Source: Acidobacteriota bacterium (GTDB taxonomy: Bacteria; Acidobacteriota; Terriglobia; Terriglobales; Acidobacteriaceae). From it: a DNA stretch of 64,000 bases. Numbering within the stretch: the stretch's first letter is position 1; every line of letters starts with the position of its first letter. A model generated the notes under the pieces. That model did not search any database, had not been told where the DNA came from, and saw only the letters and a list, made by a program, of their open reading frames with translations. The translations under genes were made by a program, and so were the position numbers. The stretch covers positions 1 to 64,000 of the forward strand of contig QIAP01000045.1 in assembly GCA_003225075.1 (NCBI GenBank), given 5' to 3'. Below, piece after piece: positions 42,200 to 47,199 of the stretch.

Positions 42200-42405
42200 T
42201 ATTCGTGCCTGATATTCGTGAAAGAGGGGCGATTTAGCGCTGCGTCCAAGATTGCCGCCCGATGGGCTTCAGCCCCTGCGGTTTCCCGGACGCGCCACAA
42301 TCCCTGTAACTTTTCCCTACTGTCTGCGTCCTATTTCGAAGAAAATAGATACAGCACCCGGAATCCGCTTCGATGCGGCATCGTACGTTGGTAAGGACTC
42401 CTAAA

Positions 42406-43365
42406 ATGTTGATCAAAAAGCCCGCCGATATTCCCCCATCCGACATTACCTCTAAGGATTTGTACTTGAACCGCCGAAAGTTCCTCGCAGGCGCCGCCAT
42501 CGCGGGCACGGCCGCAGCCACCGGCATCGGCTTGCGAGAGTTGGCTTTCCCCTCCTCCCTGGTCGAAGCCAATGCGAAAATCGACGGCATCCAGAAGAGC
42601 TCCTTCAACACTACCGAGAAAATCACGCCGTTGAAAGACGTCAGCAATTACAACAACTACTATGAATTCTCCACTGATAAATATGGGCCGGCAGGTTTGG
42701 CCAAAGACTTCAAAACCCGCCCCTGGACGGTGAAGATTGACGGGCTGGTAAAAAAGAAACAAGAGCTTGATGTTGAGACCATCATCAAGATGGCAGCTCC
42801 GGAAGAGCGCATCTATCGGCACCGTTGCGTCGAAGGATGGTCGATCGTTGTCCCCTGGGTGGGTTTTTCCTTGAGCGAACTCATTAAGAAAGCAGATCCG
42901 CTCGGCCAGGCGAAGTTCGTCGAATTCACAACCATTTACGATCCCCGGCAAATGCCCGGGCAGAAACTACCTGTTCTCGATTGGCCATACGTCGAAGGTC
43001 TTCGCATGGACGAAGCCATGCATCCCCTCTGCCTGCTCTGCTTCGGCATGTATGGTGAGGTGCTGCCCAACCAGGATGGCGCCCCTCTGCGCATTGTCGT
43101 GCCCTGGAAATATGGCTTCAAAAGCGCCAAGGCAATCGTCAAGATCAGTTTCGCGGAGAAACAGCCTGTCAATACCTGGAACAAGGCGGCTCCGAACGAG
43201 TACGGTTTTTATTCCAACGTCAATCCCACCGTGGATCACCCACGCTGGAGTCAGGCAAAAGAGCGCCGCCTCGGTGAATTTTTCAAGCGTCCTACGCTGA
43301 TGTTCAATGGCTACGATCAGGTGGCCAGCCTTTACAACGGCATGGACCTGAGAAAAAATTTCTGA
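42406..43365 (+). CDS. msrP: Protein-methionine-sulfoxide reductase catalytic subunit
   Basis: From ATG 42406 the 319-residue protein has a Tat signal (NRRKFLAGAAIAG, twin Arg 23-24) and a sulfite-oxidase-fold molybdopterin domain. The molybdenum ligand is Cys141 in YRHRCVEGWS. It repairs oxidised methionine in periplasmic proteins, taking electrons from MsrQ encoded 8 bases downstream. An upstream ATG at 42373 would spoil the Tat signal spacing and is less likely. The Moco genes moaC and mog later in the window serve its cofactor. Confidence 0.93.
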   Translation: MLIKKPADIPPSDITSKDLYLNRRKFLAGAAIAGTAAATGIGLRELAFPSSLVEANAKIDGIQKSSFNTTEKITPLKDVSNYNNYYEFSTDKYGPAGLAKDFKTRPWTVKIDGLVKKKQELDVETIIKMAAPEERIYRHRCVEGWSIVVPWVGFSLSELIKKADPLGQAKFVEFTTIYDPRQMPGQKLPVLDWPYVEGLRMDEAMHPLCLLCFGMYGEVLPNQDGAPLRIVVPWKYGFKSAKAIVKISFAEKQPVNTWNKAAPNEYGFYSNVNPTVDHPRWSQAKERRLGEFFKRPTLMFNGYDQVASLYNGMDLRKNF

Positions 43366-43373
43366 CTTTCCCG

Positions 43374-44015
43374 GTGAAACCGATACGCTTCTTCAAACCC
43401 GTAATTTTCCTCGCCTGCCTGGCGCCGCTCGCGGCCCTTGCGTGGAAGGCTTACTCAGGCAATCTCGGCGCTAATCCTATCGAAGTCATCACTCACGCGA
43501 CCGGTGATTGGACCATACGGTTCCTACTGATCACACTGAGCGTCACGCCGCTCCGCAAGTTGACCAGGCAGCCCTGGCTGATTCGTTTCCGCCGCATGTT
43601 TGGATTGTTTGCTTTTTTCTACGGTGTGCTGCACTTTCTGACTTACATCTGGCTGGACAAATTCTTTAATTTCCACGAAATGTTGACCGACATCGCCAAG
43701 CGCCGCTTCATTACTGTGGGCTTCACCGGGTTTCTACTGCTCATCCCTCTTGCCTTGACTTCGACCGCCGGATGGATTCGCCGCCTCGGCGGCAAGCGCT
43801 GGCAAATGTTGCACCGTCTGATTTATTTCAGCGCCATCGCCGGGGTAATTCACTATCTCTGGCTGGTGAAAGCCGATATCCGCAAGCCATTGCAATATGC
43901 AGCGATCCTGGCATTGCTGCTTGGGTATCGCATTTTTGTCTGGCTTCAGTCCAGATTCAAGTCAAAGAAACCTTCCCCGCTGTCGCGACCCACTATTGAA
44001 GTCTCTGAAGGGTAG
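43374..44015 (+). CDS. msrQ: Heme-binding membrane subunit of the MsrPQ system
   Basis: This 213-residue protein has six hydrophobic helices of the ferric-reductase-like type. Conserved pieces include ATGDWTIRFLLITLSVTPLR, FFYGVLHFLTYIW and WQMLHRLIYFSAIAGVIHYL, giving the heme histidines. It passes quinone-pool electrons through the inner membrane to MsrP. The start is GTG at 43374, 8 bases after msrP, so the pair forms an operon. Length matches the family. Confidence 0.92.
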   Translation: MKPIRFFKPVIFLACLAPLAALAWKAYSGNLGANPIEVITHATGDWTIRFLLITLSVTPLRKLTRQPWLIRFRRMFGLFAFFYGVLHFLTYIWLDKFFNFHEMLTDIAKRRFITVGFTGFLLLIPLALTSTAGWIRRLGGKRWQMLHRLIYFSAIAGVIHYLWLVKADIRKPLQYAAILALLLGYRIFVWLQSRFKSKKPSPLSRPTIEVSEG

Positions 44016-44178: not shown

Positions 44179-45726
44179 GTGAAGCCCAGGGGTCGTTCTT
44201 CGGAATCAGTGTCTCAAACCCATCTGCTGTCCGCCGTGACGCCGCAAAAAGCCCTAATCGTCATCATTTTTAGTTTGCTCGTATTCACTTTGGCCTGCGG
44301 CTCTGGCAACCGCAGCATCATTCCGCCGCCTAAGGGCAATTTCAACACTGCCAGCTTGAACGGCCAATACACCTATTCTCTTTCAGGAGTGGAGGAGATC
44401 GGCGCTACCAGCAACTCCGCTTCGTTTACTGAAGGCGGTGTGTTCACCGCCGACGGCAGCGGAAACATCATCAATGGCACAGATGACTTTTCGCAGAATG
44501 GAGTTTTCGGCTCTGCCGCTTTCACCGGAACCTATACCATCGACAACGACGGCACCGGCACCCTGGTTTTCGTCTTCACCAATGGCACCGGCAGCCTTTC
44601 ACTGGGCATCACCCTGATAGACAAAAACCGCTTTTACTTGATTGAAGCCGATACCTTCGCCAGCGGCGGCGGTTCAGGAGAGAAGCAGGATGCAACTGCA
44701 TTCTCCACCGTGCCCAGCGGCACGTTTGTTCTCCGGTCGCATGGCAACAGCGCCTCGCGGGGGTCCGTGGCAGCGGTTGGAGCAATGACTCTCAGTAGCG
44801 GGAGCGTTACCGGTAATGAGGACGTGCTGAGTGGTGGCGTACTCTCGTCCGTCACTCTCAGTGGATCTATCGCTGCACCCGGAACCAATGGCCGGGGCAC
44901 ACTTAGTATCAGCACCAGCGGAGGACTCAGTTTCAACTTCGCATATTACGTCGTTAGCGCAAGCACTCTGCGTCTGCTGCAGACCGATTTCGGGATTCTG
45001 GCGCTGGGGCGGGCCGAAAAACGGACCAGCGCGACTTTCTCCAATGCATCACTCACCGGAAACTTCGCCTTCGGCAGCCAGGGTGATACCAGTGCCACCC
45101 TCGGAGGCGTGCAAACCGTTGGCGCCTTTACCAGCGACGGGAATGGGACCATCACCGCCGGCAGTTTCGATTCGGTGCAGGATGGTAACCCGTTTACCGG
45201 CGTACCCTTCACCGGCAGCTACACGATGAGCTCCCTGGGTCGGGCGGCAGTTACGTTCAACCCGCAAACCGGTGTCGCCATGCAAGAAGTCTTCTGGATG
45301 GTGAGCCCAACCCGCGCTTTCTTCGTGATCAATAACCCCACGAAAGTGGAAGATGGAACCACTGATCAGCAGACTACAGCGTTCTCTACCGGCGGCCTGA
45401 ACGGCCAATTTGCTTTCCTCATGGACGGCTTCGATACCGCCAGCTTCGTCGACCGCGTAGGTACGCTACAGGCTGACGGCAAGGGTAATCTTACCCTCAA
45501 CGAACTTCTAAACCGCTTTATCCCGCCTAATCTCGGAAGCGTCACCACTCCAGGTCTTCTGGCTGGTAACTATTCCGTCGCATCCAATGGACGGGTATCA
45601 GCCAATATTCCCACTCTGTCGAGCAACCTTGTGTTCTACATGGTGTCGAATACCCTCGCCTACACGTTGCAGAATGATCCCGCAACGCAGATTTCAGGGA
45701 ACATCGCTCTTCAAGTCTCGCCCTAG
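44179..45726 (+). CDS. Surface lipoprotein with four internal repeats
   Basis: The 515-residue protein has a signal peptide with lipobox TLAC (Cys40) after an unusually long N-terminal region. The rest is four repeats of about 115 residues starting near 58, 178, 290 and 406, each opening with a line like SLNGQYTYSLSG, SLTGNFAFGSQG or GLNGQFAFLMDG and ending with a YYVVS/FYMVS-type strand. The composition is Gly, Ser and Thr rich and fits a beta-sandwich. Such proteins are frequent in acidobacteria and their role is unknown. The start is GTG with GGAG upstream. Confidence 0.72.
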   Translation: MKPRGRSSESVSQTHLLSAVTPQKALIVIIFSLLVFTLACGSGNRSIIPPPKGNFNTASLNGQYTYSLSGVEEIGATSNSASFTEGGVFTADGSGNIINGTDDFSQNGVFGSAAFTGTYTIDNDGTGTLVFVFTNGTGSLSLGITLIDKNRFYLIEADTFASGGGSGEKQDATAFSTVPSGTFVLRSHGNSASRGSVAAVGAMTLSSGSVTGNEDVLSGGVLSSVTLSGSIAAPGTNGRGTLSISTSGGLSFNFAYYVVSASTLRLLQTDFGILALGRAEKRTSATFSNASLTGNFAFGSQGDTSATLGGVQTVGAFTSDGNGTITAGSFDSVQDGNPFTGVPFTGSYTMSSLGRAAVTFNPQTGVAMQEVFWMVSPTRAFFVINNPTKVEDGTTDQQTTAFSTGGLNGQFAFLMDGFDTASFVDRVGTLQADGKGNLTLNELLNRFIPPNLGSVTTPGLLAGNYSVASNGRVSANIPTLSSNLVFYMVSNTLAYTLQNDPATQISGNIALQVSP

Positions 45727-45733
45727 TGTCCGG

Positions 45734-45753
45734 CCACGAAGGACACTTCGTGG
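45734..45753 (+). terminator. Hairpin after the lipoprotein gene
   Basis: CCACGAAG (45734-45741) pairs perfectly with CTTCGTGG (45746-45753) around GACA, 8 bases after the stop. No T tract follows, so it may be only a transcript-end stabiliser. Confidence 0.4.
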
Positions 45754-46120
45754 GCAAGTGTGCCTTAAAGACGGGGATGAGTAGTCGCCTGTAATGCGAG
45801 ACGTCGAAACTAAGTTTTCGCCCCCGGAAGTGGCAAACCAGATTTTGGAAGCTCCGCGCTGGGCTTGATTTCCCTGGTGATTTTCACAATTCGTAGACTT
45901 GCCGCCGACACCCTCACACTTACATGCCCTTGTGGAAAACCTCCGGAAACTGCTCCTGACGCGGTCTTGTGCGCTGCCCTTCAGCGCGGGCTGCACCAAA
46001 TCTGGTCATAGGCTTGTGGATGGGCTGCACTTGATTGCAGGGCAAGGAGATAGAGGAGGTGATTTTTGATTGACTATAACTGGGAGAGGAGTAAAACCAT
46101 AATCGTTCTTTGATACGTTC
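45754..46120. other. Non-coding gap between lipoprotein gene and the tandem RNA motif
   Basis: I see no supportable gene. The minus-strand ORF 45694-45999 has no recognisable residues. The stretch leads into the structured repeat pair at 46121-46405, and its last part (46046-46100) includes purine-rich agaggaggtgattttt. Confidence 0.4.
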
Positions 46121-46240
46121 TGAGGTTTACCCGGTTGGTGCGGCGTCCGGGGCTCGAGTGAGGTCACTCTGCCACACTGCAAAGTGAGGTAGAGAGGGCC
46201 AGCAAGGGTCTATAGCTAAGCGCTGGTCGAGGCGAAAGTA
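46121..46240 (+). ncRNA. Candidate structured RNA, tandem copy 1
   Basis: The copy can fold as a hairpin CCCGG (46130-46134)/CCGGG (46147-46151) with loop ttggtgcg... It then has a GAGTGA/TCACTC stem, a CACT-GCAA-AGTG tetraloop hairpin (46175-46186) and a stem CCAGC (46199-46203)/GCTGG (46222-46226) enclosing aagggtctatagc. The same order of elements recurs in copy 2 with different stem sequences. The strand is inferred from the GCAA tetraloop. The class is not recognised. Confidence 0.5.
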
Positions 46241-46280
46241 GGAACTACAGGTCAAAGGCAGGATAGAGTTTCGAGACGTT

Positions 46281-46405
46281 GAGTTGGTTTATCCGGTTGG
46301 TTGGTAAGCCCGGAGCCCGAGCAATGATCGCGCGCCGCGACCCCGCAAGGGAAGCAGCGATGGCAGGTCGGCAAGGGTCTAAAGCGAGCTACTGGCTGAG
46401 ACGAA
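46281..46405 (+). ncRNA. Candidate structured RNA, tandem copy 2
   Basis: This copy has hairpin TCCGG (46292-46296)/CCGGA (46310-46314) with loop ttggttgg..., then a CCC-GCAA-GGG hairpin (46342-46351). A GTCGGC (46367-46372) strand pairs with GCTGAGAC around caagggtctaaagc (46372-46385). Stem sequences differ from copy 1 but remain paired, while ccggttggt and aagggtcta(t/a)agc are kept. No gene lies between the copies or up to 46563. Confidence 0.5.
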
Positions 46406-46563
46406 TGAACTCAACATCATCTCGGAACTCTTATATTTTTACTACTTTCCGTTATTCTGCTTCGTTCACTTCTCGCGGTTTATTGCTAATCCTTAAAGAA
46501 AATAAAGACAATTTTTGACTTCCGCACTCGTGCCTCGGACTTGGAACGTAAAAGGCATCGTCT

Positions 46564-47199
46564 CTATCGTAATTTTCCAGTAAGTCTCTTTCTTGCGTTC
46601 CTTCGAAGGCTGCGCCGCGTCAGCCATATCCCCATCGCCAACAAGATTATTGCCAACACCCAATGAAAATGCTGTTTGAAGAACTGCCCCGTGAAGTGCA
46701 CGAACTGAGGTCCAAACTTGATGGTTAGCAATGCCAGCAACAGGAAGCGCACGAAGCGCCCGGCAAAGATGGCCGCTAGAAAGTGACTGAAACGCATTTC
46801 GAAGGCAGCGGCGGCAAGTACGAACAATTTGAATGGTGTGGGTGGCGGCAGCATTGCTGGGAACATGAGCGCCCAGAACTCATGGTGATCGAAAGAGGCG
46901 CGGATTTTCTCGAAACGCGTGGGCGAGAGTCGCTTCCGAAGCAGGACCTCGCCGCCCATGTATCCGATTAAATAGAGAATCGAACTGCCCAGGGCCGAAC
47001 CTGCCGAAGCCAGAATGACGTAAAGCAGAAACCGCGGCCGGTCGTTGTAAACATAACTAGCCACCACGGCGTCCATGGGCAGGCCCATGAAGGAAGAGTC
47101 CAGAACGCTGATGACGAAAACGCCCCACACCCCCAATGGTTTCAGAAGCGCCCATATCCACGCGCTGTAGCGCTCCAGGATGTGCTTGATGGTCTTCAA
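46564..47199 (-). CDS. VTT-domain (DedA/SNARE-associated) membrane protein
   Basis: This 211-residue membrane protein has about five helices. GVWGVFVISVLDSSFMGLPMD and SAGSALGSSILYLIGYMGG plus FPAMLPPPTPFKLFVLAAAAF are the conserved blocks of VTT/DedA proteins, which move lipids or lipid carriers across membranes. It ends with a basic tail (RRSLRRNARKR). The gene stands 45 bases from the mog gene on the same strand and may be transcribed with it. Confidence 0.85.
   Translation of the reverse strand: MKTIKHILERYSAWIWALLKPLGVWGVFVISVLDSSFMGLPMDAVVASYVYNDRPRFLLYVILASAGSALGSSILYLIGYMGGEVLLRKRLSPTRFEKIRASFDHHEFWALMFPAMLPPPTPFKLFVLAAAAFEMRFSHFLAAIFAGRFVRFLLLALLTIKFGPQFVHFTGQFFKQHFHWVLAIILLAMGIWLTRRSLRRNARKRLTGKLR

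Follow-up and report, generated by a model that had tools for sequence, protein, structure and literature searches.

Positions 46103-46440 of the forward strand constitute a predicted standalone noncoding RNA gene, untranslated and highly structured, in the analyzed window (the whole 64,000-nt stretch of DNA, part of contig C62 of the 4.79-Mb genome G000). The gene consists of two homologous domains of ~160 nt, each a long rod-like hairpin. Its product is 338 nt long here and ~330-340 nt in general, reaching ~700 nt where domain 1 bears a large insert. A real structured RNA gene is almost certainly present at this locus. The reading that best explains the observations as a whole, held at a probability of roughly 0.5, is a standalone two-rod RNA gene that is antiterminated through boxA and serves as a bivalent platform acting in trans.

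The gene lies in a gap of 837 bases (45727-46563) between an upstream ORF that ends at 45726 and a DedA-like ORF on the opposite strand that ends at 46564. An ORF check found no credible gene in these bases, in agreement with the ~830 gene-free bases of the original prediction. Counted with its promoter region, the gene spans 45992-46440. A second whole-unit copy, 98% identical, is found on contig C166 of the same genome. Elsewhere in the window, 42373-44015 resembles an MsrP/MsrQ methionine sulfoxide reductase pair (a 330 aa molybdopterin protein and a 213 aa membrane protein), which is ordinary.

Folds and covariation place domain 1 (rod 1), including its basal stem, at 46103-46264, and domain 2 (rod 2) at 46266-46430, with a basal stem formed by GAGTTTCGAGACGTTGAG and CTCAACATCATCTCGGAACTC that is also the terminator stem. 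The two related copies predicted ~160 nt apart are present and align as the homologous domain cores 46125-46236 and 46287-46405, which score 103.1 and 107.9 bits, respectively, with the R1 covariance model. They are homologous as claimed; however, they are domains of one RNA gene and not a tandem pair of separate RNAs.

Folded individually, the two halves give z = -2.9 and -2.6; the full 338-nt RNA has a folding energy of -135.7 kcal/mol (z = -4.8, 0/100 shuffles). Stem covariation, first proposed from the two copies, is strong in an alignment (A3) of 54 diverse domain cores (24 from domain 1, 30 from domain 2). The consensus contains 25 pairs with 98.7% of cells paired, and pairing drops to 31-47% when partners are offset by 1-3 columns. 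Double changes occur at 8 of the 25 pairs and affect 66 cells, whereas shuffles average 18. For example, columns 7 and 158 form UA in 23 cores and CG in 21, pair 19-146 is GC in 34 and CG in 16, and pair 62-121 is AU in 31 and GC in 15. The G.U pairs at columns 12-152 and 13-151 are invariant in all 54 cores and thus point to function at the RNA rather than the DNA level. A full-length alignment of 35 sequences likewise exhibits this covariation and supports both rods, both basal stems, and variable terminal hairpins; the 11 outermost basal pairs of domain 2 include 8 with a double change.

The fold differs in part from the one originally drawn. Both GCAA hairpins exist with their differing stems (CACT/AGTG and CCC/GGG), and AAGGGTCTA(T/A)AGC is indeed common to both copies, although it forms the 3′ strand of the rod instead of a loop with a closing stem of its own. 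Of two alternatives, the CCCGG/CCGGG local hairpin has the weaker support. It shares columns 7-11 with the rod, in which these columns pair long-range with a CTGGYCGAG found toward each domain's 3′ end. In six sequences with a G-to-A change at column 10, the long-range partner is U and the rod pair passes from G-C or G-U to A-U, whereas the local partner remains C, which disrupts the local pair. The local CCGG hairpin was thus rejected as the main structure but might form as a transient alternative.

Each lobe contains a conserved module composed of the invariant G.U-rich segment GGUUGG/CUGGYC, a CCGG internal loop, and a GGGUCUAWAGC strand. Across the 54 aligned cores, the internal loop reads UCCGGG in domain 1 and CCCGGA in domain 2, exact reverse complements at the same position (one domain 1 has an inserted base). 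This complementarity suggests a possible kissing helix that would dock the two lobes. The positions are invariant within each domain type, which leaves no covariation to assess, and they are also compatible with the local hairpin. In some genera, the variable tip of domain 1 carries a large multi-hairpin insert (L064, L065, L072, L215), including in the complete 5,650,368-bp genome G032, where the element occupies 93023-93496, and domain 1 with its insert measures 412-454 nt in some genera.

The RNA represents a new family without known relatives, while large orphan bacterial RNAs as a broad kind have precedents. Searches of the window, the element, and 19 diverse homologues against the 4227 families of Rfam 15 gave no match, and this null result, taken together with the strong covariation, bears out the claim of an undescribed structured RNA. 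Covariance models of HEARO, Acido-1, and Acido-Lenti-1 yield no match at gathering or at permissive E-values. Acido-1 and Acido-Lenti-1 (RF01686 and RF01687; PMC2864571) are likewise noncoding RNA candidates of Acidobacteria, but their models match neither the element nor the 19 homologues. No description of this RNA was found in the open-access literature, a search that covered few subscription journals. Like OLE, ROOL, GOLLD, and raiA, it is a standalone, large, highly structured, and lineage-restricted RNA; unlike them, it is without an Rfam match, internally duplicated, chromosomal, and not phage-linked, and it carries an rRNA-type boxA. OLE, ROOL, and GOLLD are reported to form homo-oligomers (PMC12286853).

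The gene possesses the signals of an independent transcription unit. A -35 hexamer TTGACT (46070-46075) precedes a putative -10 hexamer TAAAAC (46092-46097) by 16 nt, and both are well conserved among 51 upstream regions. TTGAC shows almost no variation in the family alignment; the -10 hexamer is weak, with GTAaAA conserved and TATGTT at the equivalent place in G032. Farther upstream, a block at 45992-46037 (TGCACCA...TGTGGA-N5-TGCACTTGATTG) is conserved in the same 51 regions and displays two TGCAC half-sites and TGTGGA. Its exact motif (TGCACCA...TGTGGA-N5-TGCACTCGATTG) occurs in eight genomes only before this RNA gene, and a dedicated regulator is therefore likely; the block is a probable regulator binding site. 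At the 3′ end, the basal stem of rod 2 followed by the U-rich tract TTATATTTTT (46431-46440) has the anatomy of an intrinsic terminator, and a TTATTTTTT-like tract lies 3′ of the stem in most homologues. A simple consensus scan listed neither promoter nor terminator, owing to the weak -10 and the 165-nt terminator hairpin.

The RNA starts with the boxA-like sequence TCGTTCTTTGACA, which reads TCGTTCTTTGATA in the copy at 46103 (46103-46115) and also provides the 5′ strand of the rod 1 basal stem. A search for the 13-mer TCGKTCTTTGACA in seven genomes returned 16 matches, compared with 0 for the reversed control. The 13 T-form matches all fall at these RNA genes, and the three G-form matches lie 145, 189, and 230 nt upstream of 16S rRNA. 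In these genomes the sequence thus occurs only at this RNA gene and at the position of the rRNA boxA, a comparison based on three 16S leaders because rRNA genes are unreadable in most genomes. As in boxA-dependent units, a boxA like that of the rRNA leader sits near the RNA 5′ end. In the 35-sequence alignment, the 5′ strand of the rod 1 basal stem is nearly invariant whereas its 3′ strand drifts between A and G by wobble changes, a pattern that fits a boxA recognized as sequence. Since the boxA is also base-paired with GUCAAAGG, structure could account for part of its conservation. The boxA probably functions as such in this RNA.

BoxA is found on rRNA and upstream of CRISPR arrays, where it raises array transcript levels (PMC7862264; PMC4807359), and the boxA of Legionella CRISPR reads GTTCTTTAAAA (PMC7862264). 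It binds NusB-S10 and shields untranslated RNA from Rho (PMC4807359). The same antitermination signal opens a long untranslated RNA in rRNA leaders, in CRISPR-array units (PMC7862264), and here, but the downstream RNA in this case is neither rRNA nor CRISPR. Because boxA is common to the RNA gene and the rRNA leaders and occurs nowhere else in the seven genomes, the RNA could be a ribosome-biogenesis or Nus-factor RNA, one whose boxA titrates NusB/S10 or that has a role in rRNA maturation, coordinated with rRNA synthesis. This proposal is rather unlikely: boxA makes up only a small fraction of a conserved RNA of 340 nt and becomes locked into the basal stem of rod 1 once transcribed, and the upstream promoter block is private to the RNA gene and was not seen in the rRNA leaders compared.

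In acidobacterial genomes, blastn and the R1 model each recover the RNA from 88 of 200 genomes of the family, representing 48 of its 79 genera. Matches to R1 mostly number 2, 4, or 6 domains per genome, which corresponds to whole two-domain units and to one to three genes per genome; odd counts in some genomes result from contig ends or large domain 1 inserts. Contigs end inside the RNA gene in several MAGs (G028:C12, G028:C27, G082:C10, G082:C31, and others), as they do in rRNA operons, and copy numbers in fragmented assemblies are consequently lower bounds. Named relatives found by a pattern search are Acidobacteriota MAGs, many labeled Terriglobia, Terriglobales, or Candidatus Sulfotelmatobacter. 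The RNA is missing from many genera of the same family and is thus not essential across it. In 16 family genomes without the element, a search for a diverged RNA behind boxA gave only matches resembling coding or unrelated sequence.

Phylum-wide, across 396 genomes, matches are confined to this family. An order-wide search returned weak R1 matches in two genomes of one sister family, f95: G604, with two matches (E 2e-7), and G605 (E 3e-5). If these are homologues, they would carry the RNA beyond its family; the G604 matches were not located in the ~1.93 Mb scanned of its 3.8 Mb.

A cis-acting leader is suggested by the two homologous domains in a row, as in the NAD+-I or glycine riboswitches to which the original prediction likened the pair. 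Here, however, the RNA has its own terminator and no controlled downstream gene. Of 41 loci, 26 have a convergent first downstream ORF of at least 150 aa, and the first downstream ORFs of the loci fall into 32 different clusters, which is a strong argument against leader function, and a tandem riboswitch or similar leader is accordingly the least probable of the explanations considered.

The other analogy of the original prediction, a mobile RNA, fares little better. A mobile or phage-derived RNA (an intron, retron, IS end, or pRNA-like element) might account for the two near-identical copies in G000. Yet phages, plasmids, and IMG/VR viral contigs contain zero matches, as do pattern scans of viral contigs, and neighbors are conserved across genera at two recurrent genomic locations. 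By names read from sequences, one location adjoins an oligopeptide ABC ATPase, a phosphoesterase, and an RNase H-like gene, and the other adjoins an adenosine-deaminase-like gene and a purine nucleoside phosphorylase. Diverged paralogs also have orthologues in a sister species (G006 and G160). A mobile origin is thus very improbable, and coding remnant, riboswitch, and mobile element were all rejected as identities of this RNA gene.

Paralogs are 97.6-99.1% alike in G000 and G014, which share a genus, and 80-90% alike in seven other genomes. Steady concerted evolution of the copies is only partly true in view of the latter, and gene conversion looks episodic. Between G000:C62 plus G000:C166 and G014:C74 plus G014:C406 (L033-L035), the copies have swapped flanks, with the ABC/phosphoesterase side joined to a different downstream side. 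This exchange suggests recombination between copies or mis-assembly at the repeat.

Two further alternatives concern function. A second 6S-like, polymerase-targeting RNA, whose rods would mimic melted promoter DNA and titrate RNA polymerase, would suit a housekeeping-type gene for long rod-like hairpins with internal loops. Against this unlikely assignment, a canonical 6S RNA scores above the Rfam cut-off elsewhere in the genome (G000:C81), and the element gives no match to the RF00013 model even at E<=5. The RNA shares with 6S its rod-like form but differs in having two lobes, and it contains several small conserved loops rather than a single large central bubble.

A ribozyme, or a precursor processed to small guide RNAs, is improbable even though the internal-loop sequences are large and conserved and the size is near that of known ribozymes. 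There is no variable guide-like segment, and the most conserved parts lie in paired strands. The RNA resembles RNase P in AGUCCGGG, AAGGGU, and a GCAA hairpin in the same order; however, alignment to the genome's own RNase P, whose genuine gene sits elsewhere, is no better than alignment to shuffles.

The preferred reading of a boxA-antiterminated, two-rod RNA acting in trans proceeds as follows. NusB and S10 would bind boxA as they do on rRNA, which would allow polymerase to cross the long untranslated RNA without Rho termination, and the RNA would accumulate to abundance as a result of this protection. Its two lobes would then display the same conserved module twice. The module would most probably be recognized by a protein dimer or multimer, which the RNA would sequester or scaffold in trans. 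A bivalent protein platform is plausible at somewhat less than even odds, and a regulatory or scaffold role is more likely than catalysis.

Dozens of genera of one bacterial order retain the RNA, which therefore probably serves a useful function. It may, more tentatively still, define a new housekeeping-type RNA class of that order, a bivalent two-rod RNA that uses the rRNA-type antitermination machinery, possibly with kissing-docked lobes, and acts as a global regulator or ribonucleoprotein scaffold. The family adds a large, widely kept RNA to the very few studied so far in these abundant soil bacteria. It is apparently among the few non-ribosomal, non-CRISPR RNAs with an rRNA-type boxA and offers a test of the use of Nus antitermination beyond rRNA. 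Since one carrier has a complete single-contig genome, expression, partner, and knockout phenotype are directly testable.
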